From: Nocardioides humi
GTDB lineage: Bacteria > Actinomycetota > Actinomycetes > Propionibacteriales > Nocardioidaceae
NCBI RefSeq assembly: GCF_006494775.1
Contig: NZ_CP041146.1
Span: 3,534,001-3,598,000 of the forward strand
Direction of reading: 5' to 3'
DNA: 64,000 nt
The notes below the pieces were generated by a model that saw nothing but the letters and a program-made list of their open reading frames with translations, was not told the DNA's origin and did no database searches. Positions within the stretch are counted from its first letter, which is position 1. Each line of letters opens with the position of its first letter. This document shows, piece by piece, positions 1-22,888 of the stretch. A program made the translations under genes and the position numbers.

Positions 1-1
1 G

Positions 2-721
2 CCGGTCAATGCCCACAACACCCAGATGATCCTCGAGCTGGACCAGGCGTTCACCGCTGTCCGGTTCGACGACGAGGTCCGGGCCGTGGTGCTGACCAGC
101 GAGACCGAGCGGTTCTTCTCCGCCGGCGCCGACATCGCGGTGATCCGCGACGAGAAGCCGCACCGCACCGGGTTGCTGAGTCAGACCAGCAAGGAGGTCA
201 TCCTCAAGGCCCGGAGCATCCCGAAGGTCTTCATCGCCGCGATCAACGGGCACTGCATGGGGGGTGGCCTCGAGCTCGCCTTCGCCTGCGACCTGCGCTT
301 CGCCTGCGACGGCCCCTACAAGTACGGCATGCCGGAGCTGGTGCTCGGCGTCATGCCGGGCGAGGGCGGCTCGCAGTTGCTCGGTCGGGCCATCGGGCCC
401 AACAAGGCCCTCAAACTGATGCTCGACAACACCGCGCTCTCGGTGGCCGAGGCGCTCGAGCTGGGCCTCGTCGATGTCGTGCTCGAGGCCGAGACGTTCC
501 GGGACGACGTGCACGCCTACGCGAAGAGGATCGCCGACGGTCCGATCCTCGCGATCGGTGCGACCAAGGTCGCGCTCACCGAGGGCATCGAGATGTCGTT
601 GCCCGCCGGCTTCTCCCTCGAGCGCATGCAGCAGAACGACCTCCTGCGCTCGGCCGATGCCGCCGAGGGTGCCGAGGCCTACCTCAGCAAGCGCGACCCG
701 AAGTGGTCCTCGCAGTGGTGA
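2..721 (+). CDS. Enoyl-CoA hydratase/isomerase (crotonase family), 5' end outside the window
   Basis: Reading is open to the left edge (codons from base 2 encode PVNAHNTQM before the first Met at 26), so the true start lies upstream and roughly the first 20 residues are missing. The crotonase fold is clear: FSAGADI (CoA/oxyanion loop) and GGGLELAFACDL about 50 residues later. Both catalytic glutamates of hydratases are present, the E of GGGLE and the E of MPELVLG, so hydration of a trans-2-enoyl-CoA is likely rather than isomerisation only. It is the first visible gene of the Paa-like operon and is followed after 4 bases by an aldehyde dehydrogenase. A second hydratase (4773-5531) lies in the same operon, which suggests two different enoyl-CoA intermediates. 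Family assignment is firm; substrate is unknown. Confidence 0.9.
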   Translation, partial: PVNAHNTQMILELDQAFTAVRFDDEVRAVVLTSETERFFSAGADIAVIRDEKPHRTGLLSQTSKEVILKARSIPKVFIAAINGHCMGGGLELAFACDLRFACDGPYKYGMPELVLGVMPGEGGSQLLGRAIGPNKALKLMLDNTALSVAEALELGLVDVVLEAETFRDDVHAYAKRIADGPILAIGATKVALTEGIEMSLPAGFSLERMQQNDLLRSADAAEGAEAYLSKRDPKWSSQW

Positions 722-725
722 CCCC

Positions 726-2213
726 GTGACCGCGACGGTGCTCCCCGCCGACGGACCGCGCCTGGTCGAGGAGTTGGTCCCGTCCGGGCTGTTCGTCGGC
801 GGCGAATGGCTCCGCGCCGGCGGCGCCGGCGCGGCGATCCCGGTCCACGACCCCGGCACCGGCGAGCTCCTCGGCACGGCGGACGAGGCCACCGCGGGCG
901 ACGTGGACGCGGCGGTCGGTGCCGCACGCGCCGCCTGGCCGGGCTGGCGCGACCGCGGCGGTGCGGAGCGCGCGGTGCTCCTCGCCGCCCTGGCCGACCA
1001 GGTCGAGGCGAGGGCGGCCGACCTGGCCCTCGTAGAGACGCTCGACAACGGCAAGCCGTACGCCGTCGCGTTGGGCCATGACGTCGCGAACGCCGTGGCG
1101 ACGTTGCGGCGCTTCGCGGACCTGGCGGCCCTCGACGCGCCCGACGAGGTCGAGGCGGTGATCCCGCGACGCACCAGCCCGCGGGTGCGCGTCGACCGGG
1201 TGCCGCTCGGCGTGGTCGCCGGGCTGGTCCCGTGGAACGCGCCTCTGATGACAGCCGTCTGGAAGCTCGCGCCCGCACTGGCCTTCGGGAACACCGTCGT
1301 CCTGAAGCCGGCGGAGCAGACCCCGCTCACCACGCTCCTGCTCGCCCGGCTGGTGCAGGAGGTGGGAGTCCCGGCGGGCGTGGTCTCCGTGCTCCCCGGG
1401 CGTGGTCCTACGACGGGCGCCCTGCTGGCCGGCCACCCCGGCGTCGACAAGATCTCGTTCACGGGGTCCACCGAGATCGGCCACGAGATCCTCGCCGGTT
1501 CTGCCCGGGACTTCCGCCGGGTCGGACTGGAGCTGGGCGGCAAGAGTGCCTCGCTGCTCTTCTCCGACGCGGTCCGCGCCAACGCCAAGCGCGCGGTGTC
1601 CACCGCGATGTGGGCGGTCTTCGCCAACAGCGGGCAGGTCTGCAGCGCAGGCTCCCGGCTGCTGGTCGAGCGCTCGGTGTACGACGAGGTGATCGGGCTG
1701 CTGGTGTCGATGGCCGGATCCGTGCGGCTCGACCACGGCCTGGCCGACGGTGTCCAGATGGGTCCTCTCATCTCGGCCGAGCAGCGAGCCCGGGTGCACG
1801 CGTTCGTCACCGATCCCGCTACGCCGAGACCGGTGGTCGGCGGCGTGCCGGTCGAGAGGCCGGGCTGGTTCTACCCGCCCACGATCGTTGAGGTCGCCGA
1901 TCGCGACGCGCCGATCTGGGTCGAGGAGGTGTTCGGCCCGGTCCTGTGCATCGCGCCGTTCGACGACGTCGAAGAGGCGGTCGCGGTCGCGAACGACAGC
2001 CGCTACGGGCTGGCCGCCGGCGTGATCACCGACGACGAACAGCGGGCCGCGCGGGTCGCGGCCGGGCTCCAGGTCGGGACCGTCTGGGTCAACACCCACA
2101 ACCAGTACGACCCTGCCGTCCCCTGGGGCGGCATGAAGGCGTCGGGGCTGGGCCGTGAGCTCGGCTCGGCCCGCGCGGCGTACACCGAGGAGAAGGTCAC
2201 GTGGTTCGCCTGA
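726..2213 (+). CDS. NAD(P)-dependent aldehyde dehydrogenase
   Basis: A 495-residue ALDH-superfamily protein starting at GTG 726, four bases after the preceding stop. The nucleotide-binding segment contains VPWNAPLM and KPAEQTPL, the general-base Glu lies in LELGGKS and the nucleophilic Cys in NSGQVCS; EEVFGPVL and the C-terminal GGMKASGLGREL complete the usual set, and length is normal for the family. It oxidises an aldehyde to a carboxylate with NAD(P)+. In classical phenylacetate operons PaaZ joins ring opening to aldehyde oxidation; here there is no hydratase fusion, so the hydrolase step would have to be separate or this ALDH could act on an upstream aldehyde. Family firm, substrate inferred only. 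Confidence 0.92.
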   Translation: MTATVLPADGPRLVEELVPSGLFVGGEWLRAGGAGAAIPVHDPGTGELLGTADEATAGDVDAAVGAARAAWPGWRDRGGAERAVLLAALADQVEARAADLALVETLDNGKPYAVALGHDVANAVATLRRFADLAALDAPDEVEAVIPRRTSPRVRVDRVPLGVVAGLVPWNAPLMTAVWKLAPALAFGNTVVLKPAEQTPLTTLLLARLVQEVGVPAGVVSVLPGRGPTTGALLAGHPGVDKISFTGSTEIGHEILAGSARDFRRVGLELGGKSASLLFSDAVRANAKRAVSTAMWAVFANSGQVCSAGSRLLVERSVYDEVIGLLVSMAGSVRLDHGLADGVQMGPLISAEQRARVHAFVTDPATPRPVVGGVPVERPGWFYPPTIVEVADRDAPIWVEEVFGPVLCIAPFDDVEEAVAVANDSRYGLAAGVITDDEQRAARVAAGLQVGTVWVNTHNQYDPAVPWGGMKASGLGRELGSARAAYTEEKVTWFA

Positions 2214-2244
2214 GGCGAGGCCACCTGAGGAAGGGAAGCAGTTC

Positions 2245-3185
2245 GTGATCACCGAAGAGGAGATGCTCCGACGGCTGGATGCCGGGGTCATGGTCGAGGA
2301 CATCTCGGAGATGTCTCCGACCTACCTGCGGGAGCTGAAGCGGACGCTGCTGATATCGGCGGACACCGAGTTCCTCGGGCGGTCATGTACTACCCCAACC
2401 TCGTTGAGGGCCGAGTGCCCGAGAAGATGCAGGGCGCGGTCCTCGCGATCATCCAGGACGAGCTGGGCCACGCCCACATCGACTACCGGATGCTCGAGGA
2501 CCTCGGCGAGGACCTCGACCACCTGCTCTACGGGCGTACGGCGGCGGAGTTCAAACACCCCTACGCGATGGACATGCCCTACGAGTCGTTCAACGAGTCG
2601 GTCGTCGTCGGCTCGTTCATGGACCGGGCGGGCTACATCCTGCTCTCCGACGTTTTCGAGAACACCAGCTACGCGCCGTGGCGGCGCGCTCTGGTGAAGG
2701 TGAACAAGGAGGAGCACTTCCACATCAACTTCGGGGTGCGCAACCTCGAGGCGATGTCGAAGGACCCGGAGCAGAAGGCGGTCACGCAGCGCGCGATCGA
2801 CTGGATGTTCCCCATGACCGTCGAGTGGTTCGGGCTGCCGGATGCCCTCAAGACGGGCAACAACCAGTTGCGCTACCGGCTCAAGGGCAAGAGCAACGAC
2901 CAGCTGCGACAGGAGTGGCTGGGGCAGGTCGTGCCGCTGATGGAGCGGCTGGACTTCCAGGTTCCGGCCCACCACGACGCCGAGCGTGACGAGTACGTCC
3001 TGGACTTCCCCCTGCCGTGCCGCTTCGATGCGGAGACCAAGCAGTGGCACTTCGACGAGCCGTGCACGTGGGACGACGTCCTGAAGCGGTGGCGGGCCCG
3101 CGGTCCGTGGAACGAGAAGCTGGTGGGCTTCCTGCAGGCAGGTCGGCACGGCCTGGACGCGATGTCCGGTGCGGGGGCCGCATGA
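2245..3185 (+). CDS. PaaA-like di-iron acyl-CoA epoxidase catalytic subunit (apparent frameshift near 2378)
   Basis: Homologue of the catalytic alpha subunit of phenylacetyl-CoA 1,2-epoxidase. GTG 2245 follows a GAGGAAGGGA ribosome site. The first ~45 residues (VITEEEMLRR...DTEFLG) are in one frame and the rest (MYYPNL onwards) is in the next; adding one G to the GGG at 2377-2379 gives ...FLGAVMYYPNL and a 313-residue protein, normal for PaaA. Ferritin-like iron-ligand motifs are visible as DELGHAH and KEEHFHINFG (two ExxH). The stop overlaps the next start as ATGA. The neighbours encode PaaD-, PaaB- and PaaC-like partners, a ferredoxin and a reductase. It is divergent from the classic enzyme, so the ring acyl-CoA it oxygenates is not known. 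The frameshift looks like a homopolymer error but could be real. Confidence 0.8.
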
Positions 3186-3517
3186 GCACCGCAGTGACGC
3201 CGGAGGTCGTGCGCGACGCGCTGCGACGGGTTCAGGACCCTGAGTTGCCGATCGACGTCGTCGAGCTCGGCCTGGTCTACGACATTCGCGTGGAGGAGCC
3301 CACGGACGGCGGGAGTCGGGTCGAGGTCGAGATGACCCTCACGTCGATGGGCTGCCCGTGCCACGACCTGATCGTGGACGACGTCCGCGCGGCGGCGGCC
3401 TCGGTTCCCGGCGTACGGGAGGTCGAGGTGGACGTCGTGTGGGATCCGCCGTGGGACCGCAGCAGGCTCGGGGAGTCCGGCCGGCGTTCGTTGCCGATCA
3501 TCGGCATCGGGGTGTGA
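3182..3517 (+). CDS. PaaD-like MIP18/DUF59 protein lacking the zinc-ribbon tail
   Basis: A 111-residue protein starting at ATG 3182, overlapping the PaaA-like stop by four bases. The DUF59 signature is present: QDPELPIDVVELGLVYDI near the N terminus and TSMGCPCHDL in the middle, with a CPC segment in the conserved loop. PaaD helps mature or load metal in the epoxidase and is typically about 160 residues, with a C-terminal zinc ribbon after the DUF59 domain. Here the protein ends directly after the domain (…LPIIGIGV) with no CxxC pair. A ribbon of the same type is found instead on the PaaC-like gene downstream, so the missing domain has not been lost from the operon but moved. Confidence 0.85.
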   Translation: MSTAVTPEVVRDALRRVQDPELPIDVVELGLVYDIRVEEPTDGGSRVEVEMTLTSMGCPCHDLIVDDVRAAAASVPGVREVEVDVVWDPPWDRSRLGESGRRSLPIIGIGV

Positions 3518-3524
3518 CTCGGTG

Positions 3525-3725
3525 ATGGACTCGGAGGTCTATCTGGTCTTCGCGCGCCTGCAGCTCGTCGACCCTCTCGCCCATCTGGGCACGGTGCGGG
3601 CGCCGAACGTCGCGCTCGCGCGGCAGTACGCCCGGACGACGTACGACGAGGACAGCTGGATCGAGATGATGGTCGTGCCGCGCTCGGCGACGATCTGGGT
3701 GAAGAAGGTCGAGGAGCGGGCATGA
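3525..3725 (+). CDS. PaaB-like small structural subunit of the epoxidase
   Basis: A 66-residue protein with ATG at 3525 (an in-frame GTG at 3522 would add one residue). It has the PaaB pattern: an N-terminal strand YLVFARLQLVDPLAHLGTV, then NVALARQYARTTYDE (a helix that corresponds to the conserved ALQ-ARD-Y of PaaB), then MVVPRSATIWV. PaaB bridges PaaAC heterodimers in the known enzyme and has no catalytic role. The gene is shorter than typical PaaB (about 95 residues), mainly at the C terminus. Its stop overlaps the next ATG as ATGA, in keeping with tightly coupled expression of complex subunits. Confidence 0.75.
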   Translation: MDSEVYLVFARLQLVDPLAHLGTVRAPNVALARQYARTTYDEDSWIEMMVVPRSATIWVKKVEERA

Positions 3726-4417
3726 CGACGGTGAACACGCCGGACCCGACGAGCCTGCCTGCGCTGCTGGCCGACGTGGCCGCGCTCAAGGTGGAGCTGC
3801 GCGCCTTGTACGTGCGGTGGTGCGTCGCCGGGCCGACGCTGGAGGCCAGCAGTGCGCTGGCCGCCATGGCGCAGGAGGAGACGGGACACGCGCGGGTGCT
3901 CGCCAGGCTCGCCGGAGAGGCCGAGGCCGTCATCGATGCGACCGAGGTGCTCGGCGGCGCGGCGGTCACCGACTGGCCCTCGCTGGTCGGACACGCCGGA
4001 CCGGTCGAAGTCGCGCTCGCCTCGGTGACCGCGGCCCTGCGCGGCGTCGGTGACCCCGAGGTGCAGCGCAACCTGGCGAAGATCGCCGTCGAGGAGCGCA
4101 GCCACGCCGACTTCTTCACCGGGTGCCTGCTCGAGCTGGCTCCGCGGGAGGACGCGGCCGGGGCGCGGTTCCGCAGCACGCGGACCGACACCGAGAAGCG
4201 GCTCGCGCCGTGGCTCGACCACTCGACGGTGGTACTCGGTGACAGCAGGGGCGCTGCCTCCGGCGCACTGGACGGCGGGACGGTGCTCGACGTGCCGTGC
4301 GTGCACTGCGGTTCGCGCGAGACCCGGCTGAGCGCGGCCTTCGGCGGCTCGCTGCTCACGTCCCTGATGCAGTGCGCCGCATGCGGATCGCAGTTCGAAG
4401 CCGTGCGCTGGCGCTGA
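3722..4417 (+). CDS. PaaC-like ferritin-fold subunit fused to a PaaD-type zinc ribbon
   Basis: A 231-residue protein. Residues ~20-150 form a ferritin-like four-helix segment with two ExxH motifs, QEETGHARVL and VEERSHADFF, as in di-iron proteins. The last ~40 residues contain two CxxC pairs (CVHC near 193-196 and CAAC near 218-221) with the pattern PC-x2-CGS…C-x2-CGSQFEA that normally closes PaaD. The classic PaaC is about 250 residues and has no such tail. Together with the ribbon-less PaaD-like protein this indicates a domain swap between two subunits of the same complex. ATG 3722 overlaps the PaaB-like stop. Role as the second ferritin-fold subunit of the epoxidase is inferred from operon position and fold. 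Confidence 0.8.
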   Translation: MTTVNTPDPTSLPALLADVAALKVELRALYVRWCVAGPTLEASSALAAMAQEETGHARVLARLAGEAEAVIDATEVLGGAAVTDWPSLVGHAGPVEVALASVTAALRGVGDPEVQRNLAKIAVEERSHADFFTGCLLELAPREDAAGARFRSTRTDTEKRLAPWLDHSTVVLGDSRGAASGALDGGTVLDVPCVHCGSRETRLSAAFGGSLLTSLMQCAACGSQFEAVRWR

Positions 4418-4443
4418 GCCGACGAGCGAGGAGAGACAAGACC

Positions 4444-4776
4444 GTGGCCTTCATGATCGGTGCTGCCTGTATCGATGTCCTGGATCGCTCGTGCGTGGAC
4501 CAGTGCCCCGTGGACTGCATCTACGAGGGCAGCCGCAAGCTCTACATCCAGCCCGACGAGTGCATCGACTGCGGCGCGTGCGAGATGGTCTGTCCGGTCA
4601 GCGCTGTGACGTCACTGCGGGTGGCCCAGGACGAGGAGCTCGAGTTCGGCCAGGACAACGCCGACTTCTTCGCGACGGTGCTGCCGGGACGCTCCGAGCC
4701 GCTGGGGTCCCCCGGGGGCGCCGCGGAGCTCGGGCCTGTGGGCGCGGACACCGCGCTGGTGGCGGCGCGGCCATGA
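4444..4776 (+). CDS. 7Fe-type ([3Fe-4S]/[4Fe-4S]) ferredoxin
   Basis: A 110-residue ferredoxin starting at GTG 4444 behind a GAGGAGAGA site. Two cysteine clusters are seen: C-x6-C-x3-CP in ACIDVLDRSCVDQCPVDC and CIDCGACEMVCPV. The arrangement and the acidic tail (DNADFF) match actinobacterial FdxA-like proteins. In this operon it is the obvious electron carrier between the FprA-like reductase (6375-7697) and the epoxidase, replacing the plant-type ferredoxin domain that PaaE provides in the standard system. Alternatively it could serve the P450 at 10109-11401, which has no dedicated ferredoxin in this window. Its stop overlaps the next ATG. Confidence 0.9.
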   Translation: MAFMIGAACIDVLDRSCVDQCPVDCIYEGSRKLYIQPDECIDCGACEMVCPVSAVTSLRVAQDEELEFGQDNADFFATVLPGRSEPLGSPGGAAELGPVGADTALVAARP

Positions 4777-5531
4777 CCCTCCCCGACTACACCCGGATCC
4801 TCGTCGAGGAGCTGGGCGACCGCACCATCGTTCGGCTGAACCGGCCCGAGGCGCGCAACGCCATCGACCTCGAACTCGGCCGCGAGCTCCACGACGTCTG
4901 TGCGCGGCTCGAGGAGACGCCCCGGCCGATGCTGCTCACCGGCGCCGACGGGTGCTTCGCGGCCGGTGCCGACATCGGCCAGCTGCTCGGCCGTGGGCGG
5001 CACGAGGCGCTGGCCGGCATCAACAGCTCGCTGTTCGAGCGCGTGCACCGGCTGCCGATGCCGACCGTGGCAGCGGTCGACGGCTACGCCATCGGCGGAG
5101 GTGCGGAGCTGGCGTACGCCTGCGACATCCGGGTGGCGAGCACGCGGGCGTCGTTCGCCAACCCCGAGCCCGGCCTCGGCATCGTGGCGGGTGCCGGAGC
5201 GACCTGGCGACTGCCGGAGCTCGTCGGCATGCCGCTCGCGAAGCTGGTGCTGCTCGCCGGTCACCGGATCGAGGCGGCGGAGGCGCTGTCCTCGCGGCTG
5301 GTGGCCGCGGTGGTCGAGCCGGAGGAGCTCGAGGCAACGGCGATGGCGCTGATCGACCGGATGAGCAGGATGTCCCCGATCGCACTGCGGCTGTCCAAGT
5401 ACGTCCTCGACGCCGACGCGGTGCACCCGTACGCCGACCTGCTGGCGAATGCGCTGCTGTTCGAGGACGAGGAGAAGAAGGAACGGATGCAGGCATTCCT
5501 CGACAAGCGGAGCACGAGGTCGACCTCGTGA
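4773..5531 (+). CDS. Enoyl-CoA hydratase/isomerase (PaaF/PaaG type)
   Basis: A 252-residue crotonase-family protein, ATG 4773 overlapping the ferredoxin stop. Motifs: RLNRPEARNAID at residues ~18-30, FAAGADIGQL for the CoA pocket, GGGAELAYACDI with the first catalytic Glu, and ANPEPGLGIV with the second Glu. Both hydratase acids are therefore present. It would hydrate the enoyl-CoA formed after ring opening and supply the substrate of the dehydrogenase that overlaps its 3' end by four bases. Family certain; whether it behaves as a hydratase or as the ring-opening oxepin-type isomerase (PaaG role) cannot be decided from sequence. Confidence 0.9.
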   Translation: MTLPDYTRILVEELGDRTIVRLNRPEARNAIDLELGRELHDVCARLEETPRPMLLTGADGCFAAGADIGQLLGRGRHEALAGINSSLFERVHRLPMPTVAAVDGYAIGGGAELAYACDIRVASTRASFANPEPGLGIVAGAGATWRLPELVGMPLAKLVLLAGHRIEAAEALSSRLVAAVVEPEELEATAMALIDRMSRMSPIALRLSKYVLDADAVHPYADLLANALLFEDEEKKERMQAFLDKRSTRSTS

Positions 5532-6391
5532 CCGGGAGCTGGGCGCGGACCGTTGCCGTCGTGGGTGGCGGCCAGATGGGCGCGGGCATCGCCCACGCCT
5601 TCGTGGTCCTCGGCGCCACGGTGACCGTGGTGGAGCCGGACTCGGACACGGCGGGGCGGGCCGAGCAGCGCATCGCCACCGACGTCTCGCGCACCTGTGC
5701 CAAGCGCGGCCTCGACGAGGACGAGGCGGCGGCCCAGCTGGCGCGGCTCCGGATCGTCGACCAGCTGGCCCTGATCCCGGCCGACAGCGACCTGGTGGTG
5801 GAGGCGGTGCCCGAGCTCGTCGAGCTCAAGACGGCGGTCCTGGGTGCGATCGAGCAGGCGGTGCCCGCCACGGCCGTGCTCGCCTCCAACACCAGCTCGC
5901 TCTCGGTCACCGAGCTCGCGTCGCGCCTCGCCCGCCCAGGGCGCTTCTTGGGCATGCACTTCTTCAACCCGGTGCCGGCCTCGGCCCTGGTCGAGCTGGT
6001 CACCGGGGCACGGACCGACCCCGGCGTCGTCGACCAGGTCCGGGAGCTGGTCGCCGCGCTGGGCAAGGAGTCCATCGTGGTCGACGACAGCCCCGGCTTT
6101 GCGACCAGCCGGCTCGGTCTCGCCCTGGGCCTGGAGGCGATCCGGATGTACGAGGCCGGCGTGGCCAGCGCACGGGACCTCGACCGCGCCATGGTGCTCG
6201 GCTACCGGCACCCGGTGGGTCCGTTGGAGCTGACCGACCTCGTCGGACTCGACGTGCGGCTCGCCGTCGCGGAGCATCTGCAGGGCGAGCTCGGTGAGCG
6301 GTTCGCGCCGCCCGAGCTGCTGCGCCGCCTGGTCGCCGAGGGCAAGCTCGGCAAGAAGACGGGGGAGGGGTTCCATGTCTGGGACAGCTGA
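5528..6391 (+). CDS. 3-hydroxyacyl-CoA dehydrogenase (PaaH/FadB2-like)
   Basis: A 287-residue NAD-dependent dehydrogenase with GTG 5528 overlapping the preceding stop (GTGA). The N terminus carries a Rossmann GGGQMGAGIAHAF motif; ASNTSSLSVTELA and the catalytic MHFFNPVP His are in place, followed by the C-terminal helical domain with DDSPGFATSR and HPVGPLELTDLVGLD. Length equals that of stand-alone bacterial HADHs. It oxidises the (S)-3-hydroxyacyl-CoA from the adjacent hydratase, feeding the thiolase at 7690. It overlaps the following reductase gene by 17 bases. Confidence 0.93.
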   Translation: MTGSWARTVAVVGGGQMGAGIAHAFVVLGATVTVVEPDSDTAGRAEQRIATDVSRTCAKRGLDEDEAAAQLARLRIVDQLALIPADSDLVVEAVPELVELKTAVLGAIEQAVPATAVLASNTSSLSVTELASRLARPGRFLGMHFFNPVPASALVELVTGARTDPGVVDQVRELVAALGKESIVVDDSPGFATSRLGLALGLEAIRMYEAGVASARDLDRAMVLGYRHPVGPLELTDLVGLDVRLAVAEHLQGELGERFAPPELLRRLVAEGKLGKKTGEGFHVWDS

Positions 6392-7697
6392 GCCCGCGCC
6401 TCGCGTCGCGGTCGTGGGGTCCGGCCCGTCCGGGCTGTACGTCGTCGCGGCTCTGCTCCGTGGCCATGAGGGGGTGCTCATCGACGTGATCGACCGGTTG
6501 CCGGCGCCCTACGGTCTGGTGCGGTACGGCGTCGCCCCCGACCACCCCACCATCAAGAACGTCACGCGCGTGCTCGCCAAGTCGTTCTCCGATCAGCGGG
6601 TGCGCTTCCTCGGCAACGTCGAGGTGGGCCGCCAGGTCGGCCACGAGGAGCTGGTGGCTGGCTACGACGCCGTCGTCTACGCCACCGGCAGTCAGGTGGA
6701 CCGGCCGCTCGGCGTGGCGGGCGAGGAGCTGCGGGGCAGCGTCGGCTCGGCGCAGGTCGTCGGTTGGTACAACGGGCTGCCCGGTGCGCCGCCGGTCGAC
6801 CTCACCGGCCGCGACGTGGTCGTGGTGGGTGGCGGCAATGTCGCCCTCGACGTCGCCCGGGTGCTGACCCGCTCGCCCGGCGAGCTCCGCTCGACCGACG
6901 TGCCCGGGCAGGTGCTCGACGCGTTCGGCGCGAGCGCGGTGACCGATGTGCACGTCCTGGTCCGACGCGGACCGGCGCAGGCCCGCTTCACCCACCTGGA
7001 GCTGCTCACCCTCGACGAGATGTCAGGCGTGACGTGCGTGGTCCACGACGAGCTCCGCGCTCCGGTCCACGAGGACCTGGGCCCCGGACCCGAGGCGGAA
7101 CAGCTCCGCCGCAACGTCGCCCTGTTCGCCCGATGGCAGGACGAGGGCCCCGACGCGAGCCCGCGCCGGGTGCACTTCCACTTCCACCGTCGCGCCGAGC
7201 GGCTGGTCGGCGTGGGCGGACGGGTGGTCGGGGTCGACACCGTCGGCACCCACGGTGCAGCGGCGGCGCCCGAGCGGCTCGCCGCAGGGCTGGTCGTCCG
7301 GGCCATCGGCTACGACACGGTCCCGCTCGCAGGGCTGCCCTTCGACGCCTCCCGCGGGGTGGTGCCCAACGCCGAGGGCCGGGTGCTGGCGGGAGCGGAC
7401 GTCGTCCCCGGGGTGTACGTCGCGGGGTGGTGCAAGCGAGGAGCCACCGGGGTCATCGCCACCAACAAGACGTGTGCGAACCAGACCGCGGCGTCGGTGC
7501 TCGCCGACCTCGCGGTGGCCGTGCCACGCGGCACCGGGCCGGTCGCAAGTCCTGCCGGCGCGGTCGACTGGCCGGGGTGGCTGCTCCTCGACGAGCACGA
7601 GCGGCGGGCCGGTGCTGCTCGCGGTGCCGAGCGCGTGAAGTCGGCCGACCTCGAGCTCATGCTCGCCGTGGCATCGGGGGTGGCCGCCCGTGCGTGA
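6375..7697 (+). CDS. FprA/adrenodoxin-reductase-type NADPH-ferredoxin reductase
   Basis: A 440-residue FAD flavoprotein. GSGPSGLYVV at the N terminus binds FAD, RLPAPYGLVRYGVAPDHP is the hallmark of the adrenodoxin reductase/FprA family, VVVVGGGNVALDVAR is the NADP site, and VYVAGWCKRGATGVIATNK near the C terminus is the second FAD segment. It transfers NADPH electrons to a ferredoxin. Standard epoxidase operons use PaaE, a fused plant-type reductase, which is absent here, so this enzyme plus the 4444-4776 ferredoxin is the likely electron supply. It starts inside the preceding dehydrogenase gene and overlaps the thiolase start. Confidence 0.92.
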   Translation: MSGTAEPAPRVAVVGSGPSGLYVVAALLRGHEGVLIDVIDRLPAPYGLVRYGVAPDHPTIKNVTRVLAKSFSDQRVRFLGNVEVGRQVGHEELVAGYDAVVYATGSQVDRPLGVAGEELRGSVGSAQVVGWYNGLPGAPPVDLTGRDVVVVGGGNVALDVARVLTRSPGELRSTDVPGQVLDAFGASAVTDVHVLVRRGPAQARFTHLELLTLDEMSGVTCVVHDELRAPVHEDLGPGPEAEQLRRNVALFARWQDEGPDASPRRVHFHFHRRAERLVGVGGRVVGVDTVGTHGAAAAPERLAAGLVVRAIGYDTVPLAGLPFDASRGVVPNAEGRVLAGADVVPGVYVAGWCKRGATGVIATNKTCANQTAASVLADLAVAVPRGTGPVASPAGAVDWPGWLLLDEHERRAGAARGAERVKSADLELMLAVASGVAARA

Positions 7698-8904
7698 GGC
7701 CGTGATCTGCGAGCCTCTGCGCACGCCCGTGGGTGCGTTCGGCGGCTCGCTCGCGGACGTCTCGGCACACGAGCTCGCCGCGACCGTGATCCGCGAGCTG
7801 ATCCGGCGTACCGGACTGCCGCCGGAGGTGGTCGACGACGTTCTGCTCGGCAACTGCTACCCGACCATGGAGGCCCCCGCGCTCGGTCGCGTGGCGGCCC
7901 TGGACGCTGGGCTGCCGGTGACCGCCTCGGGGCTCCAGGTCGACCGCCGCTGCGGCTCCGGGCTCCAAGCCGTCCTGATCGCCGCGCTCCAGGTGCAGTC
8001 GGGGATGGTCGACCTCGCGCTCGCCGGCGGCGCCGAGTCGATGTCGAACGCGCCCTTCTACTCCGCCGAGATGCGGCGCGGCGCCGGACGCGGTGGCGGC
8101 GTGTTGCTGCACGACGCCCTCGCTCGCGGCAGGACGACCGCTGGCGGACGGCACCACCCCGTCCCCGACGGGATGCTGGAGACCGCCGAGCATGTCCGCG
8201 AGCGCTACGGGATCTCGCGCGAGGAGCAGGACGAGCTGGCGGTGACCAGCCACCAGCGCGCGGGCGCGGCGGTGGCGGAGGGCCGGTTCGCCGACGAGCT
8301 CGTGCCCGTGGAGGTGCCGGTGCGCGGCGGCATCGCGCTGATCGACGCCGACGAGCACATCCGCCCGGACTCCACCGCCGAGAAGCTCGCCACCCTCCGG
8401 GCGGTCCTGGGTGGGCGCTTCCCCGGCGCCACGGTGACCGCCGGCAACTCCAGCGGCCAGAACGACGGTGCGGCCGTCTGCATCGTCACCCACGCGGAGC
8501 GTGCCGCCGAGCTCGGGCTGCGGCCGCTGGCACGGCTCGTCGGGGCCACCGTGGCCGGCGTCGAGCCCGAGTTGATGGGGCTCGGCCCCGTACCCGCCGT
8601 ACGACGACTGTTGGCCGACCACCGACTGAGCCTGGCTGACGTCGACCTGATCGAGATCAACGAGGCGTTCGCGGTCCAGGTGCTCGCGTGCCTGCGCGAG
8701 CTCGGCCTCGGCCCGGCCGACCTCGACAGGGTCAACGTCAACGGATCAGGCATCTCGCTGGGCCACCCGGTGGGGGCGACCGGTGGTCGCATCCTGGCGA
8801 CCCTCCTGAGGGAGATGGACCGGCGCGGCGCTCGGTACGGTCTCGAGACGATGTGCATCGGGGGCGGGCAGGGGCTCGCTGCCCTCTTCGAGGCGGTCTC
8901 GTGA
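7690..8904 (+). CDS. Acetyl-CoA C-acyltransferase (thiolase, FadA/PaaJ type)
   Basis: A 404-residue thiolase with GTG 7690 overlapping the reductase stop. The acylated nucleophile Cys lies in QVDRRCGSGLQAV, the catalytic His in SLGHPVGATGGR and the second Cys in MCIGGGQGLA, so the enzyme looks fully active. NEAFAVQVLACLRELG is also typical. Because it closes an operon containing hydratases and a hydroxyacyl-CoA dehydrogenase, the degradative direction, 3-oxoacyl-CoA + CoA to acetyl-CoA + shortened acyl-CoA, is expected. Its stop overlaps the GTG of the CoA-transferase-like gene. Confidence 0.93.
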   Translation: MREAVICEPLRTPVGAFGGSLADVSAHELAATVIRELIRRTGLPPEVVDDVLLGNCYPTMEAPALGRVAALDAGLPVTASGLQVDRRCGSGLQAVLIAALQVQSGMVDLALAGGAESMSNAPFYSAEMRRGAGRGGGVLLHDALARGRTTAGGRHHPVPDGMLETAEHVRERYGISREEQDELAVTSHQRAGAAVAEGRFADELVPVEVPVRGGIALIDADEHIRPDSTAEKLATLRAVLGGRFPGATVTAGNSSGQNDGAAVCIVTHAERAAELGLRPLARLVGATVAGVEPELMGLGPVPAVRRLLADHRLSLADVDLIEINEAFAVQVLACLRELGLGPADLDRVNVNGSGISLGHPVGATGGRILATLLREMDRRGARYGLETMCIGGGQGLAALFEAVS

Positions 8905-10066
8905 CCGACCTCGACATCGGGCTCCTGGCGCGGTTGGTCCGGCCCGGGGCCAGGATCGCCCTGGCCGACGGCAGCGGTGCGCCGGTCTGGCTGCTCCCCG
9001 AGCTCGCGGAGGTCGCCGCACGACACGGGTCCGTCGACCTGCTTCTCGGCTGGATCCCGCGGCCCGTGCCGAGCGAGTCGCTCCGCGCCTTCGGCGATGT
9101 CCGGACCTTCATGCCGGGGTGGGGGTTGCGGCAGGCCTCGGACGCCGGAGCCGTTCAGCCGGTCGCGAGCCGGATGTCGGCGGTCGGCGGCCTGCTCGCC
9201 GGCCCGCTGCGCCCCGACCTGCTGGTCGCCACCCTCGTCCGCCGCGGTGGTGGGCTCCGATTCGGGTCGGAGTGCTCGTGGATGCGGCGTCTGGTCGAGG
9301 CCGGCGTGCCGGTCGCGGCGGTGGTCAGTTCCACGGCGCCGTGCGCTGACGCCGGACCGGCGCTGCCCACCGGGACGGTCACGGTGGTCGCCGAAGTCGA
9401 CCAGGCGCCGTGGGAAGTCGCCCCCGAGCCCCCGGCCCGGTGGAGCAGGCGGTCGCGGGCCGGGTCGCCGCGCTGGTGCCGACCGGAGCGCGCGTCCAGG
9501 TCGGGCCCGGCCGTCTCGGCGCCGCCGTGCTGGCCGAGCTCGCGGAGCGCCAGGTGTCGGTCCACGTGGACTCGGGGCTGCTGCCGGACGCCGTGGTCGA
9601 CCTCGCGGCGCGTGGGCTGCTGCTCGGCGTACCGGTTGCCACCTACCTCGCCGGGTCGGCACGCCTCTACGACTGGGCCGACGGGCGGCCGCTCCTCCAT
9701 CCCGTGGAGTGGACCCACTCCGCCGGACGGCTCGGCGACGGCCCTGCGCTGGTGGCCGTCAACACCGCGCTCGAGGTGGATGTGCACGGCCAGGTCAACG
9801 TCGAGGGGACCGCGGCCTCGTCCGTCGGTGGGATCGGCGGGCACCCGGACTACGCGGGAGCGGCGGCCTCCTCGGCGGACGGGCTCAGCGTGATCGCTCT
9901 CGCGTCGTCGTACGCCGGCCGCCCGACGCTGGTCGAACAGCTCTCCCGACCGGCGACGACCGCCGCTCACGATGTCGACGTCGTGGTCACCGAGCGGGGG
10001 AGTGCCGATCTGCGCGGCCTCAGCCGAGCTGAGCGGACGACGGCCCTGCGACGGCTCTGGGACTGA
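8901..10066 (+). CDS. Acetyl-CoA hydrolase/CoA-transferase family protein (apparent frameshift near 9431)
   Basis: Starts at GTG 8901 in a GTGA overlap with the thiolase. The first ~178 residues (LVRPGARIALADGSGAPVWL…) are in one frame and the rest, from GPVEQAVAGRVAALVP, in another; adding one C to the run at 9429-9433 joins them into 388 residues. The C-terminal half has features of the Cat1/4-hydroxybutyrate CoA-transferase family: HVDSGLLPDAVVDLA, GIGGHPDYAGAA and the closing VVTERGSADLRGLSRAER. These enzymes move CoA between acids or hydrolyse acetyl-CoA; here it may recycle CoA from the thiolase products. It is somewhat shorter than the usual ~430 residues. Confidence 0.75.
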
Positions 10067-10070
10067 GTCT

Positions 10071-10085
10071 CACATCACCGATGTG
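10071..10085. terminator. Short hairpin between convergent operons
   Basis: CACATC-ACC-GATGTG forms a six-pair perfect stem in the 42-base gap between the convergent CoA-transferase-like and P450 genes. There is no T-run on either side, so if it terminates transcription it does so weakly or with help. Confidence 0.35.
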
Positions 10086-10108
10086 GGATCGGCCTGGTCC
10101 AGGCGGCC

Positions 10109-11401
10109 TCACCAGGCGACGGGAAGTGCCCGCACACCGTGGATCCTGGCCGAGGTCTTCAGCTCGATCTCATCGACGTCGACCGCGAGTCGGAGCTCCG
10201 GGATCCGGCGGAACAGCGTCTCGAAGATGACCGAGAGCTCCATCCGGGCCAGCGACTGGCCCTGGCACTGGTGCACGCCGAAGCCGAAGGCAAGGTGGTC
10301 GCGGGCACGACGCTCGATGTCGAAGGTCGCGGCCTGGGGGTAGTGCGACTCGTCGCGGTTGGCCGAGGCGTTCAGGGGCATGATGCCCTCGCCGCGCGGG
10401 ATGGTGACCCCAGCGATCTCGATGTCGTCGGTCGCCACCCGGGCGATGATCAGGTGCACGTGGCTGAGCCAGCGCAGCACCTCCTCGATCGCCACGTCGA
10501 GCAGCGACGGGTCGGCCTTGAGCTTGGCCAGCTGGTCGGGGTGGGTGAGGAGGAGCAGCACGCCGAGGGCGGCAGCGTTGGCCGTGGTGTCGAAGCCGGC
10601 GCCGATGATCAGGAACCCGCTGCTGACCGCGTCCTTGTGGGAGATGTCCCCGCGGCGGTGGGCCGCTGCCAGCTGGCCGATGATGTCATCGCTCGGCGTC
10701 TCCCGTGCGAGCTCGCGGTCGATCAGCTCGCCGACGTAGGCGTAGACCTCCTCGGCGATCCGGCGCGACCGTTCCTGCGCCTCGGTGTCGAGAGGATTGC
10801 CGTTGTCGAGCATCGACTGGATCTGTTCCGCGAAGTGGTCGCGGTCCTCGACCGGCACCCCGAGCAGGTTGCCCAGGACGTTCGCCGGGATCCTGAGGGC
10901 CAGCGCCGGCACCAGGTCGACCTGTCGTCCCTCGGTGGCCAGCATCTCATCGATGGCCTGGTCGACCATCGCCTGGACGGCGGGTCGCATGCTCGCTACG
11001 TGCTTGATCCCGAAGTTGCGCGCCACCAGGCCGCGCAGCTCGGCATGTCGCGGGTCGTCCATCTTGGAGTAGGTGCCGGCGCGCGGACCCATCCCCGGGA
11101 ACCCGGGGTCGGTCTCGTCGGCACTCACCCGTGGGTCAGTGAGGACCGCCCGCACGTCGTCGTACCTCGTGACCAGCCAGACCGGACGGCCGTCCGCGAG
11201 CTTCGCCCGGGCGACCGGGCACTTCTCGCGCAGCGCCCCGTACTCCGCCGGCGGGTCGAACCGCCCCCGGGGCCAGGGGAACGGTGTGTCGAGCGCACGG
11301 GCGAGGTCGACGTCCGCCGCGGCTGACGGCCCGGAGACCGGACACCCGGTCGGCGTGGTCGAGGCTTCGTCGTGCGCCGTCTGGTCTGTCTGGACCCCCA
11401 C
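10109..11401 (-). CDS. Cytochrome P450 monooxygenase
   Basis: A 430-residue class I bacterial P450. The I-helix oxygen motif is GAGFDTTANA, the K-helix ExxR is EEVLRW, and the haem loop is FGFGVHQCQGQSLAR with the proximal Cys. The N terminus carries the proline-rich entry PFPWPRGRFDPP. No redox partner is adjacent; the ferredoxin and FprA-like reductase of the operon at 4.4-7.7 kb are the nearest candidates. It is transcribed divergently from the aldehyde/alcohol dehydrogenase operon, and two copies of the shared ACCGGC-N2-GCCGGT box sit between them, so it is probably co-regulated. It likely hydroxylates the growth substrate or a side chain; substrate unknown. Confidence 0.93.
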   Translation of the reverse strand: MGVQTDQTAHDEASTTPTGCPVSGPSAAADVDLARALDTPFPWPRGRFDPPAEYGALREKCPVARAKLADGRPVWLVTRYDDVRAVLTDPRVSADETDPGFPGMGPRAGTYSKMDDPRHAELRGLVARNFGIKHVASMRPAVQAMVDQAIDEMLATEGRQVDLVPALALRIPANVLGNLLGVPVEDRDHFAEQIQSMLDNGNPLDTEAQERSRRIAEEVYAYVGELIDRELARETPSDDIIGQLAAAHRRGDISHKDAVSSGFLIIGAGFDTTANAAALGVLLLLTHPDQLAKLKADPSLLDVAIEEVLRWLSHVHLIIARVATDDIEIAGVTIPRGEGIMPLNASANRDESHYPQAATFDIERRARDHLAFGFGVHQCQGQSLARMELSVIFETLFRRIPELRLAVDVDEIELKTSARIHGVRALPVAW

Positions 11402-11423
11402 GGTCTCTCCTCGCTGATGACTA

Positions 11424-11437
11424 GCCGGCTGGCCGGT
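11424..11437. promoter_or_regulatory. Copy of the window-wide ACCGGC-YR-GCCGGT operator
   Basis: GCCGGCTGGCCGGT matches 13 of 14 positions of the palindrome shared by about twelve intergenic sites in this window. It lies 23 bases upstream of the P450 start on the minus strand, within the divergent promoter region with the 11566 operon. Confidence 0.7.
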
Positions 11438-11497
11438 TGGTTATTGAGTAGACTACCGCCCTCCGCGAGCGCTGCCAACCACGCCTCACTATTGCCG

Positions 11498-11511
11498 ACC
11501 GGCCAACCGAT
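11498..11511. promoter_or_regulatory. Weaker second copy of the operator
   Basis: ACCGGCCAACCGAT, followed by CGGTT, keeps the first half-site of the palindrome perfectly and the second half imperfectly. It sits 55 bases upstream of the GTG at 11566. The pair of sites at 11424 and 11498 could give separate control of the two divergent operons or cooperative binding. Confidence 0.55.
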
Positions 11512-11565
11512 CGGTTAGCGTCCGTGCAAGCCGAGAACGCGGCTGTGCACACAGGTGGGAGACAC

Positions 11566-13020
11566 GTGGACTACGACTTCGACTCCTGGTTCGTCGACGG
11601 CGAGTGGGTCCGCTCCGCCGACGCGGACCCGACGGCCGGCCCGGTCCGGGTCCGCGCGGCGAGCACCCGGGAGCCGGTCGGGAGCTTCCCGCGGCTGGGC
11701 GTGGCCGACGTGGCACGTGCCGTCGGCGCGGCACGCGCCGCCTTCGACGACCCGGGAGGCTGGTCCGCATGGACGCCGGCCGCCCGGGCCGAGGCGATGG
11801 AGGATCTGGCCGACCGGCTGGCCGCGAAGTCCGAGGAGATCGGGCGACTGGTCAGCCTGGAGAACGGCATGCCGATCTCGCTCAGCCAGCGCTCCGAGGC
11901 CCACGCCGGCGCCGGCCTGCTGCGCTTCTTCGCGGCGATGGTTCGTGAGCGCAGCGAGGAGGAGGTGCGGGTCGGGGTCACCGGTCGGCACAATGTCGTC
12001 CGGAGTGAGCCCCTCGGGGTGGTCGCCGCGGTCGTGCCGTGGAACTATCCGCAGGCGCTCGCCTTCACGAAGGTGGCGCCGCTGCTGGCAGCGGGTTGCA
12101 CGGTCGTCCTCAAGCCCGCGGAGGAGACCTCGCTTGACTCCTACCTGATCGCCCAGGCGGTCGCCGAGTCCGGCCTGCCCCGGGGGGTCGTCAACGTGCT
12201 GCCCGGCGGACGCGACGTCGGTGCCGCCCTGGTCGAGCACCCGGGAGTCGACAAGGTGGCGTTCACCGGCTCGACGGCGGCCGGACGGGCGATCGCCGTA
12301 CGATGCGCGGAGCTGCTGCGTCCGGTCTCGCTCGAGCTGGGCGGCAAGTCGGCGGCGATCGTCCTCGAGGACGTCGACCTCACGAGCCGGGTGGCGGAGT
12401 TCCGCGAGGCGACGATGCGCAACAACGGTCAGACCTGCCATCTGAGCACCCGTGTCCTGGTCCCGGCTGCCCGCTACGACCACTACGTCGACCAGGTGAC
12501 CGATCTCATCGGCTCGCAGGTCGTCGGCGACGCGCTGGACGCTGCGACCGACGTCGGCCCCCTCGTCTCCGAGGTGCAACGCGACCGCGTCGAGGGTTAC
12601 CTGGGGAAGGCGCGTGGTGACGGTGCCACGGCCACGACGGGTGGGGGTCGACCGACCGCCGGGCAGGGCTGGTACGTCGAGCCGACGGTGTTGCGCGACG
12701 TCGACAACGACCAGGTCATCGCACGCGAGGAGGTGTTCGGCCCCGTCCTGTGCGTGATCCCGTACGGCGACACGGACGACGCCGTACGCCTGGCAAACGA
12801 CAGCGACTACGGACTGGGCGGAACCGTCTGGAGTGAGGACGAGGAGCGAGCCGGTGCGGTCGCTCGGCGGATCCGGACCGGGACGGTCGGCATCAACGGC
12901 TACCGGAGCGATCCGGTCGCACCGTTCGGAGGGATCAAGGGCAGCGGCACCGGGCGGGAGCTCGGGATCGAGGGGTTGCAGTCCTATCGGAACATCAAGT
13001 CGATCTTCCCGGCGCCGTGA
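11566..13020 (+). CDS. Aldehyde dehydrogenase
   Basis: A 484-residue ALDH starting at GTG 11566, chosen because AGGTGGGAG lies 6 bases upstream; GTGs at 11524 and 11545 are in frame but lack a ribosome site. Motifs: VVPWNYPQ and KPAEETSL for NAD(P) binding, Glu in LELGGKSA, Cys in NNGQTCHL, EEVFGPVLC, and GGIKGSGTGREL at the C terminus. It forms a pair with the zinc alcohol dehydrogenase that overlaps its stop (GTGA), so the two probably oxidise an alcohol through its aldehyde to an acid, the acid then being CoA-activated elsewhere in the cluster. Confidence 0.92.
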   Translation: MDYDFDSWFVDGEWVRSADADPTAGPVRVRAASTREPVGSFPRLGVADVARAVGAARAAFDDPGGWSAWTPAARAEAMEDLADRLAAKSEEIGRLVSLENGMPISLSQRSEAHAGAGLLRFFAAMVRERSEEEVRVGVTGRHNVVRSEPLGVVAAVVPWNYPQALAFTKVAPLLAAGCTVVLKPAEETSLDSYLIAQAVAESGLPRGVVNVLPGGRDVGAALVEHPGVDKVAFTGSTAAGRAIAVRCAELLRPVSLELGGKSAAIVLEDVDLTSRVAEFREATMRNNGQTCHLSTRVLVPAARYDHYVDQVTDLIGSQVVGDALDAATDVGPLVSEVQRDRVEGYLGKARGDGATATTGGGRPTAGQGWYVEPTVLRDVDNDQVIAREEVFGPVLCVIPYGDTDDAVRLANDSDYGLGGTVWSEDEERAGAVARRIRTGTVGINGYRSDPVAPFGGIKGSGTGRELGIEGLQSYRNIKSIFPAP

Positions 13021-21277: not shown

Positions 21278-22888
21278 GTGAGCTCTGCCCAGTTCGAGCG
21301 TGAGCTGACCGCCCTGCCCTCGCTGCTGCGGCGCAACGCCAGTCTCGCCCCGGACCGCGTATCGGTCATCTATGAGGATGGGACGACCTGGACCGCGAAG
21401 GAGTCACTGGAGTGGGCGCACGGCGCCGCAGCGAGCCTCCGGCAGCTCGGAGTGCGCCACGGGGACCGGGTGGCACTGGCCCTGCCGAGCGGCCCGTCCT
21501 TCCTGCGAGCGTGGTGGGGGCCGCCCTGCTCGGGGCGGTCGTGGTCCCGGTGAACCTGACCTACCGAGGTGAGCTGCTCTGGCAACTGCTTGAGCCTGCC
21601 GCTCCCAAGGTCCTGGTGACCGACGCGAGTTTCGTCGACCGTCTGCTGGATCGGCCACCCGCATTGGCGGATCTACGGGTGGTCTTCGATGACGAGCTGG
21701 GCGGGCCGATCTCCGAGGACCCGGCCGCCGAGGTGGAGGTGCACCCGTGGCACTCGGCCGTCTACATGCTGACCTCGGGTACGACAGGGCCGTCCAAGCT
21801 CGTGGACACCAGCCAGTTCGGCTGCTTCCTGGGCGGAGACGTCTTCTTCTCTCCCGTGGGGTCTCGGCCCCGACGACCGCTTCCTGGTCGACCTGCCGCT
21901 CTTCCACGCGGCGGCGTTCCGGTTCGTGCACGCGAGCCTGGGCGTCGGGACCTCGATCGTGGTGCGTGGCCGACCGAGTCTCGACCGCTACTGGGAGGTT
22001 GCCCGCGACGCCGGGGTGACCGCGACCCTGCTGGTCAGCTCGATGTTCTCGCGGCTGACCGCGATGCCGGTCCGCGCCGCCGAGCGTGAGCACCGGATCC
22101 GCCTCGTCGGCGGGGTCCCGCTGCCGATGGACTCCGAGGGCTTCCGGTCGCGCTTCGGCATCGCTGAGCTGCATACCGCGTGGGGCATGACCGAGGTGCC
22201 AGCGGCCATCCACGTCCACCCCGGGATCCCCTTCCGGGCCGGCTCGATCGGGGTCGTGCGCGAGGGATTCGAGGTCCGGCTGGTCGACGAGCACGATCGT
22301 GAGGTGCCGCGCGGCACCCCGGGGCAGGCAGTGGTCCGCGCCGACGCGCCGTGGACCATCGCCACGGAGTACGTCGGCCAGCCCGTGGCCACCGCACAGG
22401 CCTGGCGCAACGGCTGGTTCCACACCGGCGACCTCCTGCGACAGGATGAGGACGGCTACTACTTCTTCGTCGACCGCGACAAGGACGTGGTGCGGCGCCG
22501 CGGCGAGAACATCTCCAGCTTCGAGGTCGAAGCGGTTCTCCTGGGCCACCCGCAGATCGCCCAGGTCGCCTGTGTGCCGGTGCGTCGGCCGGACGTCGAG
22601 GACGAGGTCAAGGTCTGGGTGGTGCCGAGGGCCGGGGAGCGGGTCGCGTTCCCCGAGCTGCTCGAGTTCTGTGTCGACCGGCTGCCCCATTTCATGGTGC
22701 CGCGCTTCTTCGAGCTCGCCGAGGAGTTGCCGCTCACCCCGACCGGAAAGGTCGAGAAGGGCACGCTGCGCGCCACCGGCAACGGGGTCCGAACGTGGGA
22801 CCGCGCCGCTCATGGATATGCCGTCACCCGACGCGGTCTGGCGCGTGACGCGGGCGCTCCGGAGGCTCCCTCCGCGGCGGTGACCTAA
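21278..22888 (+). CDS. AMP-forming acyl-CoA ligase (two apparent frameshifts)
   Basis: An ANL-superfamily ligase, 536 residues when repaired. GTG 21278 follows TAAGGAG. The first part (…FLRAW) shifts near 21511-21520, in a G-rich stretch, to VGAALLGAVVVPVNLTY; the second part contains the phosphate loop YMLTSGTTGPSK and shifts back near 21860 to DRFLVDLPLFHAAAF, where an extra base is the simplest explanation. The last part has AWGMTE, YFFVDRDKDVVRRRGENIS and the catalytic Lys in TPTGKVEKG. It activates a carboxylic acid to its CoA thioester. Two shifts in one gene make a genuine pseudogene somewhat more likely here than elsewhere, but all catalytic motifs are conserved. Confidence 0.75.

Follow-up and report, generated by a model that had tools for sequence, protein, structure and literature searches.

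A PaaE-less operon of Nocardioides humi for a probable Paa-type epoxidase, with its own ferredoxin and ferredoxin reductase genes

In the Paa route of aromatic degradation, the ring is opened to an aldehyde and beta-oxidation follows. A comparable diiron aryl-CoA epoxidase is the benzoyl-CoA 2,3-epoxidase BoxA/BoxB, in which BoxA has a two-cluster ferredoxin part. The canonical PaaABCDE set, found in E. coli, Pseudomonas and others, is encoded beside hydratase, dehydrogenase and thiolase genes. In E. coli PaaA, whose residue numbering (after section 3.2 of PMC4498308) we follow, the sections of that source concerned with the active site give Glu42, Glu72, His75, Asp126, Glu155 and His158 as the iron ligands and have Phe108 orienting the phenyl ring of the substrate. 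A ‘lysine bridge’ (Lys68/Glu49) is proposed in passages of PMC4498308 and PMC7497051 to relay electrons from PaaE. Parts of PMC13186573 describe ‘partial multicomponent’ Paa configurations, among others in Halobacteria, call the archaeal sets incomplete, and suggest functional divergence or fragmentation. Here we describe a Paa-type locus that lacks PaaE in a 64,000-nt stretch of Nocardioides humi (contig NZ_CP041146.1, 6.22 Mb; positions 3,534,001-3,598,000, forward strand), and ‘the window’ refers to this whole stretch.

A single run of plus-strand genes in the window encodes ECH1, aldehyde dehydrogenase, PaaA-, PaaD-, PaaB- and PaaC-like proteins, FdxA, ECH2, a dehydrogenase, FprA and a thiolase, and a CoA-transferase-like gene comes after the thiolase at the end of the run. 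We lean slightly toward the reading that this run codes for a diiron aryl-CoA epoxidase of the Paa type that receives electrons through an NADPH-FprA-FdxA chain and perhaps does not act on phenylacetyl-CoA. The features are as follows.

1..721, + strand: ECH1, crotonase family, starting 110 bases left of the window (genome position 3533891); linked homologues in L023 (65% identity), L025 (52%) and L094 (37-38%)
726..2213, + strand: aldehyde dehydrogenase (PF00171, 489 bits), a candidate oxidizer of a ring-opened semialdehyde in a PaaZ-N-like role
2245..2384, + strand: 5' part of the PaaA-like gene, in its own frame, GTG start; the frame breaks near 2380
2385..3185, + strand: 3' part of the PaaA-like diiron epoxidase subunit, 266 amino acids (PF05138, 146.9 bits)
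3182..3517, + strand: PaaD-like protein, 111 amino acids, FeS_assembly_P domain only and no zinc ribbon (PF01883, 79.1 bits; haloarchaeal PaaD model NF041868, 95.7 bits, under its cut-off of 180)
3525..3725, + strand: PaaB-like protein, 66 amino acids, no Pfam match, aligning to PaaB of relatives (52% identity to L023, 49% to Thermus, 26% to canonical L114)
3722..4417, + strand: PaaC-like protein, 231 amino acids, with a fused C-terminal PaaD zinc ribbon at about 4280-4405 (PF05138, PF23451)
4444..4776, + strand: FdxA-type 7Fe ferredoxin (NF045480 FdxA_Actino, 133.5 bits, above the cut-off of 125)
4773..5531, + strand: ECH2, enoyl-CoA hydratase/isomerase (PF00378, 165.7 bits)
5528..6391, + strand: 3-hydroxyacyl-CoA dehydrogenase, putative PaaH-like role (PF02737, PF00725)
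6375..7697, + strand: ferredoxin-NADP+ reductase, presumably of the FprA type (PF07992)
7690..8904, + strand: thiolase, putative PaaJ-like role (PF00108, PF02803; NF004853 above cut-off)
9410..10066, + strand: C-terminal part of an acetyl-CoA hydrolase/CoA-transferase (PF13336); the preceding stretch, which has no Pfam match, could be the gene's 5' portion, read in a different frame
10109-11401, - strand: cytochrome P450 (PF00067), 2.4 kb from FprA

Much of this content had been proposed in an earlier note made from the letters of this DNA alone. The motifs, the order A-D-B-C, the 7Fe ferredoxin and ferredoxin reductase in an operon without PaaE, and the hydratase, hydroxyacyl-CoA dehydrogenase and thiolase in the same run are all confirmed by family matches or, for PaaB, by alignment to relatives; the overlaps it described are limited to the A/D and B/C pairs (4 bases each), and D and B lie 7 bases apart. 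Three further elements were absent from that note: the leftward extension of the run through aldehyde dehydrogenase and ECH1, the zinc ribbon on PaaC, and the frame break in the PaaA-like gene. Its claim that PaaE is missing also withstood a search of the whole genome with the PaaE model TIGR02160, in which the best match reaches 185.5 bits against a cut-off of 420.8 and none passes, while the canonical genomes G032, G038, G049 and G303 give 456-511 bits as positive controls. The gene next to that best match we take to be a KshA-like Rieske gene. A paaE just upstream, which the note had named as evidence to the contrary, was not found in the 18 kb to the left of the window. Matches to PF05138 in the whole genome are confined to the PaaA-like and PaaC-like subunits of the window.

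The locus shares with canonical PaaABCDE the PaaA fold, the six iron ligands, homologues of PaaA, PaaB, PaaC and PaaD, and a setting beside lower-pathway genes; it differs in the missing PaaE, the gene order, the transfer of the PaaD zinc ribbon onto PaaC, the replacement of Lys68/Glu49 and of Phe108, and a PaaA far under the family cut-off. The 3' part of the PaaA-like protein matches PaaA of Protein Data Bank entry 3pvr (E 3.4e-17), and the predicted structure of its intact homologue P0002 (predicted local distance difference test score, pLDDT, 92.5) gives template modelling (TM) scores of 0.82-0.87 to solved PaaA. Against BoxB the same model reaches only 0.47-0.56 (by model length). This poor fit, together with the lack of any BoxB family match returned for the PaaA-like protein, ruled out an identity as BoxB; the window FdxA matches the BoxA model TIGR03224 weakly (22 bits).

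The PaaA alignment and tree contain 79 rows picked by hand from loci and from listed database proteins (191 of 195 loci were kept for the PaaA set, the remainder carrying a stop or an unread base). Row groups carry labels coined in this analysis: CAN, ACT3 (a third actinobacterial group), NOC3, T2, CLOSE and VIR. One locus labelled T2, L023, falls inside CLOSE, and one labelled ACT3, L215, groups with CAN and has a PaaE. All six diiron ligands are kept in 46/46 T2 and close rows, and in 45/45 of those with a letter at Glu42; the window row is gapped at that position because it was aligned from the 3' frame only and its first ligand sits in the 5' part. The ligands are kept in all groups save for Asp126, which is Asn in both NOC3 rows.

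A fully supported branch (100/100) divides the tree into 53 rows, including the window, and 26 rows, made up of the 8 canonical PaaA and other actinobacterial PaaA; the tree program warns that long branches meet at this split. Nesting within ordinary PaaA, which the earlier note had offered as a refutation of its separate class, is ruled out by this branch, and the family scores point the same way. Against TIGR02156 PaaA (cut-off 280 bits), the 3' part from the window scores 98.3 bits and intact P0002 104.5 bits, compared to 509.4 bits for the canonical control L113. Seven tested members of a wide PaaE-less type score 94-120 bits. This type makes the 53-row side taxonomically broad, with Thermus, Rubrobacter, Pyrinomonas, Ktedonobacteria, haloarchaea, an Agrobacterium plasmid and viral contigs, and it is annotated as Paa (phenylacetic acid catabolic protein) in Thermus and haloarchaea.

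Excluding the window, L115 and the viral contigs, we compared 90 distinct loci of the PaaE-less type, 3.1-20.9 kb long, of which 73 are comparable in having >3.2 kb beyond paaA. In 73/73 of these the matches follow the order A-D-B-C plus zinc ribbon, and this holds too at half-query coverage. A Thermus plasmid record, for example, reads PaaA, ‘metal-sulfur cluster assembly factor’, a small hypothetical protein at the place of PaaB, PaaC and a hydratase. The order A-D-B-C thus differs from paaABCDE, as had been noted, yet it is the norm of the PaaE-less type and no special trait of the window. The suggestion of an undescribed system falls for the same reason, as a PaaE-less A-D-B-C set is the rule in a widespread type already annotated as Paa (compare the configurations covered in PMC13186573). 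No full PaaE lies in any of the 90 loci, and 16/17 whole genomes of the type besides the window's, some of them incomplete metagenome-assembled genomes, have no PaaE above cut-off; in the exception, G365, the PaaE lies 2.2 kb from a second, canonical-like paaA. The window shares with this type its deep PaaA branch, gene order, lack of PaaE and lost lysine bridge and, with many of its loci, a nearby ECH1-like hydratase.

A sample of 396 actinobacterial genomes contains 25, apart from the window's own, in which the type is present at >455 bits. Within the 294 sampled genomes of the window's family, only its own genome matches at E 1e-60 or better, a query with which wider-type members reach 1e-117 or better, and this suggests that the window locus was gained horizontally. 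The 58 sampled genomes of L023's order returned only L023's own match and no further close-clade genome, the 66 sampled genomes of G283's class yielded 8 wider-type members and none of the close clade, and in plasmid records the nearest kin is 52% identical, with none closer.

Both residues of the lysine bridge, Lys68 and Glu49, are replaced in the window PaaA-like protein. Lys68 is present in 8/8 canonical, 16/16 ACT3 and 2/2 NOC3 rows and absent from the remaining groups (0/32 T2, 0/14 close with the window included, 0/1 Thermus, 0/1 Agrobacterium and 0/5 viral rows). A simple correspondence between loss of the bridge and loss of PaaE was considered and ruled out by ACT3, whose Lys68-bearing rows have no detectable PaaE: no full PaaE lies near paaA in any of the 15 loci other than L215, and PaaE is above cut-off in 0/7 ACT3 genomes tested. 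The bridge is therefore not simply readable as a dock for PaaE. At the Phe108 position, Met occurs in the window and 19 other rows, which form exactly one subclade (branch 98/94) holding the close clade, L025 (Thermogemmatispora), L094 (Bacillus) and three database proteins. Phe108 is kept in 26/32 T2 rows and in Thermus.

Two features set the window's close kin apart from the wide PaaE-less type: FdxA and FprA in the operon, and the fusion of the ribbon to PaaC. The C-terminal ribbon of the window PaaC scores 37.6 bits against PF23451 (cut-off 27). In the PaaD model TIGR02159 the ribbon stands after the FeS_assembly part, and the window PaaD matches positions 1-88 of this model and the PaaC ribbon positions 104-144. 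In the predicted PaaC structure, a loose linker joins a PaaC-like core of helices to a ribbon of three strands. Among PaaC proteins from loci the fusion occurs in 1/88, the window alone; it is found in 0/87 relatives (PaaC was extracted from 87/112 loci), and L023 encodes the ribbon in a short gene of its own. In protein-database matches to the window PaaC, the fusion is present in 8/10, window included (P0122-P0128), and the two without a ribbon are shorter (202 and 158 residues). Seven other database proteins carrying the fusion rule out a side effect of frame errors. By fusion logic, in which fused domains are taken as partners, the arrangement suggests that the zinc ribbon touches PaaC. 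Most of the 88 PaaC rows of this type conserve Q-x-E-x-G-H and E-E-x-x-H-like motifs (His56 in 66/88, His128 in 70/88), and because of this conservation a partial second metal site in PaaC is possible.

FdxA starts 26 bases past the end of PaaC in the same direction, and FprA belongs to the same strand run. This FdxA is a distinct copy, as its identity to four further genomic homologues is 52-58%, and a fifth matches it only in part, at 35%. The reductase matches general Pfam domains only; many source-named relatives among the matches listed are called ferredoxin--NADP+ reductase, and the nearest homologue listed, P0132, is 68% identical, with the next at 53%. P0132, the PaaA homologue P0002 (87%) and the ribbon-bearing PaaC homologue P0122 (61%) are each reported on a longest contig of 7602 bases, and from this common size they probably lie on one metagenomic contig, as the same operon in a second organism. 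In M. tuberculosis, FprA reduces FdxA in vitro in a cytochrome c assay, which raises kcat/Km 2- to 4.3-fold over FprA on its own, according to the assay sections of PMC6208970.

Two other PaaE-less settings also pair Paa genes with a ferredoxin. A short stretch that resembles part of PaaE is present in all 22 haloarchaeal loci of the type (21 identified by title among L023-L102, plus L188). It lies on the opposite strand, ~1 kb left of paaA, and is annotated in L188 (5916-6197) as a 2Fe-2S protein; this 2Fe-2S ferredoxin-like gene stands in place of FdxA/FprA and independently hints at a free ferredoxin next to a Paa complex that lacks PaaE. In a genome of the window's genus (G014), the L115 cluster (8659-11930) encodes PaaA-like, PaaB, PaaC and PaaD proteins, then an FdxA 64% identical to the window's. 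It is a third kind of PaaE-less cluster, with a PaaA of another class (35% identical), the order A-B-C-D, Asn at Asp126 and Lys68 kept. A flavin ferredoxin reductase ~7 kb to its left presumably belongs to a family other than the window's.

Taken together, the kept iron ligands, the PaaA fold, the lower-pathway genes and, for the electron chain, the gene order, the inferred second contig, the M. tuberculosis pair, L115 and the haloarchaeal parallel lead us to infer the following mechanism. The complex would be made and active as a Paa-type multicomponent diiron epoxidase acting on the ring of an aryl-CoA thioester, with PaaA holding the diiron site and PaaB and PaaC building the complex. Maturation or support of the metal site may fall to the PaaD-like protein and to the zinc ribbon, here tethered to PaaC. 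Electrons would pass from NADPH to the FAD of FprA, on to the Fe-S clusters of free FdxA and then to the PaaA diiron centre, replacing PaaE, the fused reductase-ferredoxin that would thereby be bypassed. The presumed epoxide product would be processed by ECH1/ECH2 (as isomerase, ring hydrolase and hydratase), then by aldehyde dehydrogenase, 3-hydroxyacyl-CoA dehydrogenase and thiolase.

Several points weigh against this proposal. Catalytic activity of the complex is a prediction, and a frame break interrupts PaaA in the present assembly. The common contig is deduced from the 7602-base size alone, and a size of 1953 bases is also common to P0008 (close-clade PaaA) and P0218 (FprA); the latter coincidence is chance, as 1953 bases cannot hold the two genes together. 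No other size is common to the close-clade PaaA proteins P0002-P0029 and the 120 listed FprA matches, and the FprA linkage is therefore not extended to other close-clade genes. FdxA and FprA occur in 0/90 distinct relatives' loci, 71 of which reach at least 5 kb right of paaA, so other members would use other donors. In M. tuberculosis, FprA works better with Fdx than with FdxA (reported in part of PMC6208970). The P450 gene only 2.4 kb from FprA adds a real competitor for the ferredoxin.

The ordinary phenylacetate pathway of the Thermus and haloarchaeal type, with phenylacetyl-CoA as substrate and the ferredoxin and reductase just boosting the general ferredoxin supply, we consider unlikely, though it has real support. 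Thermus has the same A-D-B-C set, hybrid-route phenylacetate degradation is reported for the genus in portions of PMC13186573 and PMC9493321, and the lower-pathway gene classes agree with the Paa route. Against it stand a genome without phenylacetate-CoA ligase above cut-off (PaaK, TIGR02155; best 28 bits against 646) and Met in the window's subclade at the position of Phe108, the ring-orienting residue of the E. coli enzyme, which is Phe in Thermus. Phenylacetyl-CoA is less likely as the substrate on these two grounds, although AMP-binding ligases of other families in the window leave it conceivable. The different ring substrate suggested previously is accordingly plausible and unproven. The presence of aldehyde dehydrogenase, hydroxyacyl-CoA dehydrogenase and thiolase genes in a single run is consistent with a route that opens the ring to an aldehyde and continues by beta-oxidation.

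Loci of two phyla that bear the Met108-type epoxidase have further genes in common. L025 (13476-18543) and L094 (15118-19202) share a PaaK-like ligase (37%), an AMP-ligase (43%) and a protein that we take to be of the creatininase family (37%), and these genes probably form one conserved pathway with the epoxidase. Only the AMP-ligase of the three was matched in the window, and distantly.

A second alternative, that FdxA and FprA serve the cytochrome P450 and not the PaaA complex, appears rather more doubtful. FprA and ferredoxins are redox partners of P450s in M. tuberculosis, as passages of PMC6208970 describe, and the proximity of the P450 gene is compatible with such a role. However, this gene is on the opposite strand from FdxA, which directly follows PaaC and is co-directional with it; the inferred contig of 7602 bases has FprA together with PaaA and PaaC; and the FdxA of L115 likewise comes after PaaD of a PaaE-less cluster.

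The break in PaaA is the remaining difficulty. Residues 1-61 of intact P0002 are encoded in one frame and 46-309 in another, with the switch near 2380; intact homologues have ~311 residues, and the 27 aligned with P0002, in a set of 28, share 66-86% identity with it. An alcohol dehydrogenase and a TPP (thiamine pyrophosphate) enzyme to the left of the window (L111 4202-5358 and 9200-11118) and an AMP-ligase gene at window 21412-22888 are each split between two frames as well. Because nearby unrelated genes are split likewise, the PaaA break is probably an assembly error (indel). A decaying or assembly-damaged locus with a dead PaaA gene and no complex made would account for the broken frame and for the three similar splits within about 40 kb, but it is quite improbable given that the splits strike unrelated genes of the region, as uncorrected assembly indels would, that the eight genes from paaD through thiolase are all open, and that the genome is 99.97% complete (computed completeness).

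Stray relatives of these proteins occur in other settings. On two IMG/VR contigs, L167 (9179-10407) and L168 (7794-8714), a PaaA-like gene sharing 38-42% identity with the close clade sits among neighbours that are phage-like by eye, and the gene on L167 adjoins a PaaD-like gene. Among the six such contigs with room, PaaD is matched in three and neither PaaB nor PaaC in any; a phage-borne diiron enzyme on L167 and L168 is possible. The L025 stretch from Thermogemmatispora tikiterensis has an extra PaaA/PaaC/PaaD-like set (2234-4841) within the same 20 kb as its Met108 set, with a PaaA 27-31% identical to that of the Met108 set, and a separate L044 locus is also present. An Agrobacterium conjugative plasmid (L189, 7938-10257) bears a PaaE-less A-D-B-C set, 39-40% identical, whose PaaA has Ala at the Lys68 position and Leu at the Phe108 position.

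A broader reading, which we offer tentatively and do not favour, is that the PaaE-less sets form a separate class with a bridge-less diiron centre served by lineage-specific free ferredoxins, FdxA with FprA in the actinobacterial line and a 2Fe-2S ferredoxin in haloarchaea. The ribbon would then belong to the PaaABC complex, with a role in its structure or maturation at which the PaaC fusion hints, and the Met108 subclade would open the ring of a CoA thioester other than phenylacetyl-CoA. The system is real and conserved and not categorically new, being a variant of the Paa epoxidase. In the literature searched, we found no paper naming the electron donor of PaaE-less Paa epoxidases. For this large PaaE-less group, the operon gives a concrete, testable donor pair, with the haloarchaeal ferredoxin-like gene as a second candidate, and the PaaC-ribbon fusion hints at the contact partner of the PaaD zinc ribbon. 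It also advises caution in using PaaA and PaaC as markers of phenylacetate degradation, since this genome has homologues of both and no PaaK above cut-off.

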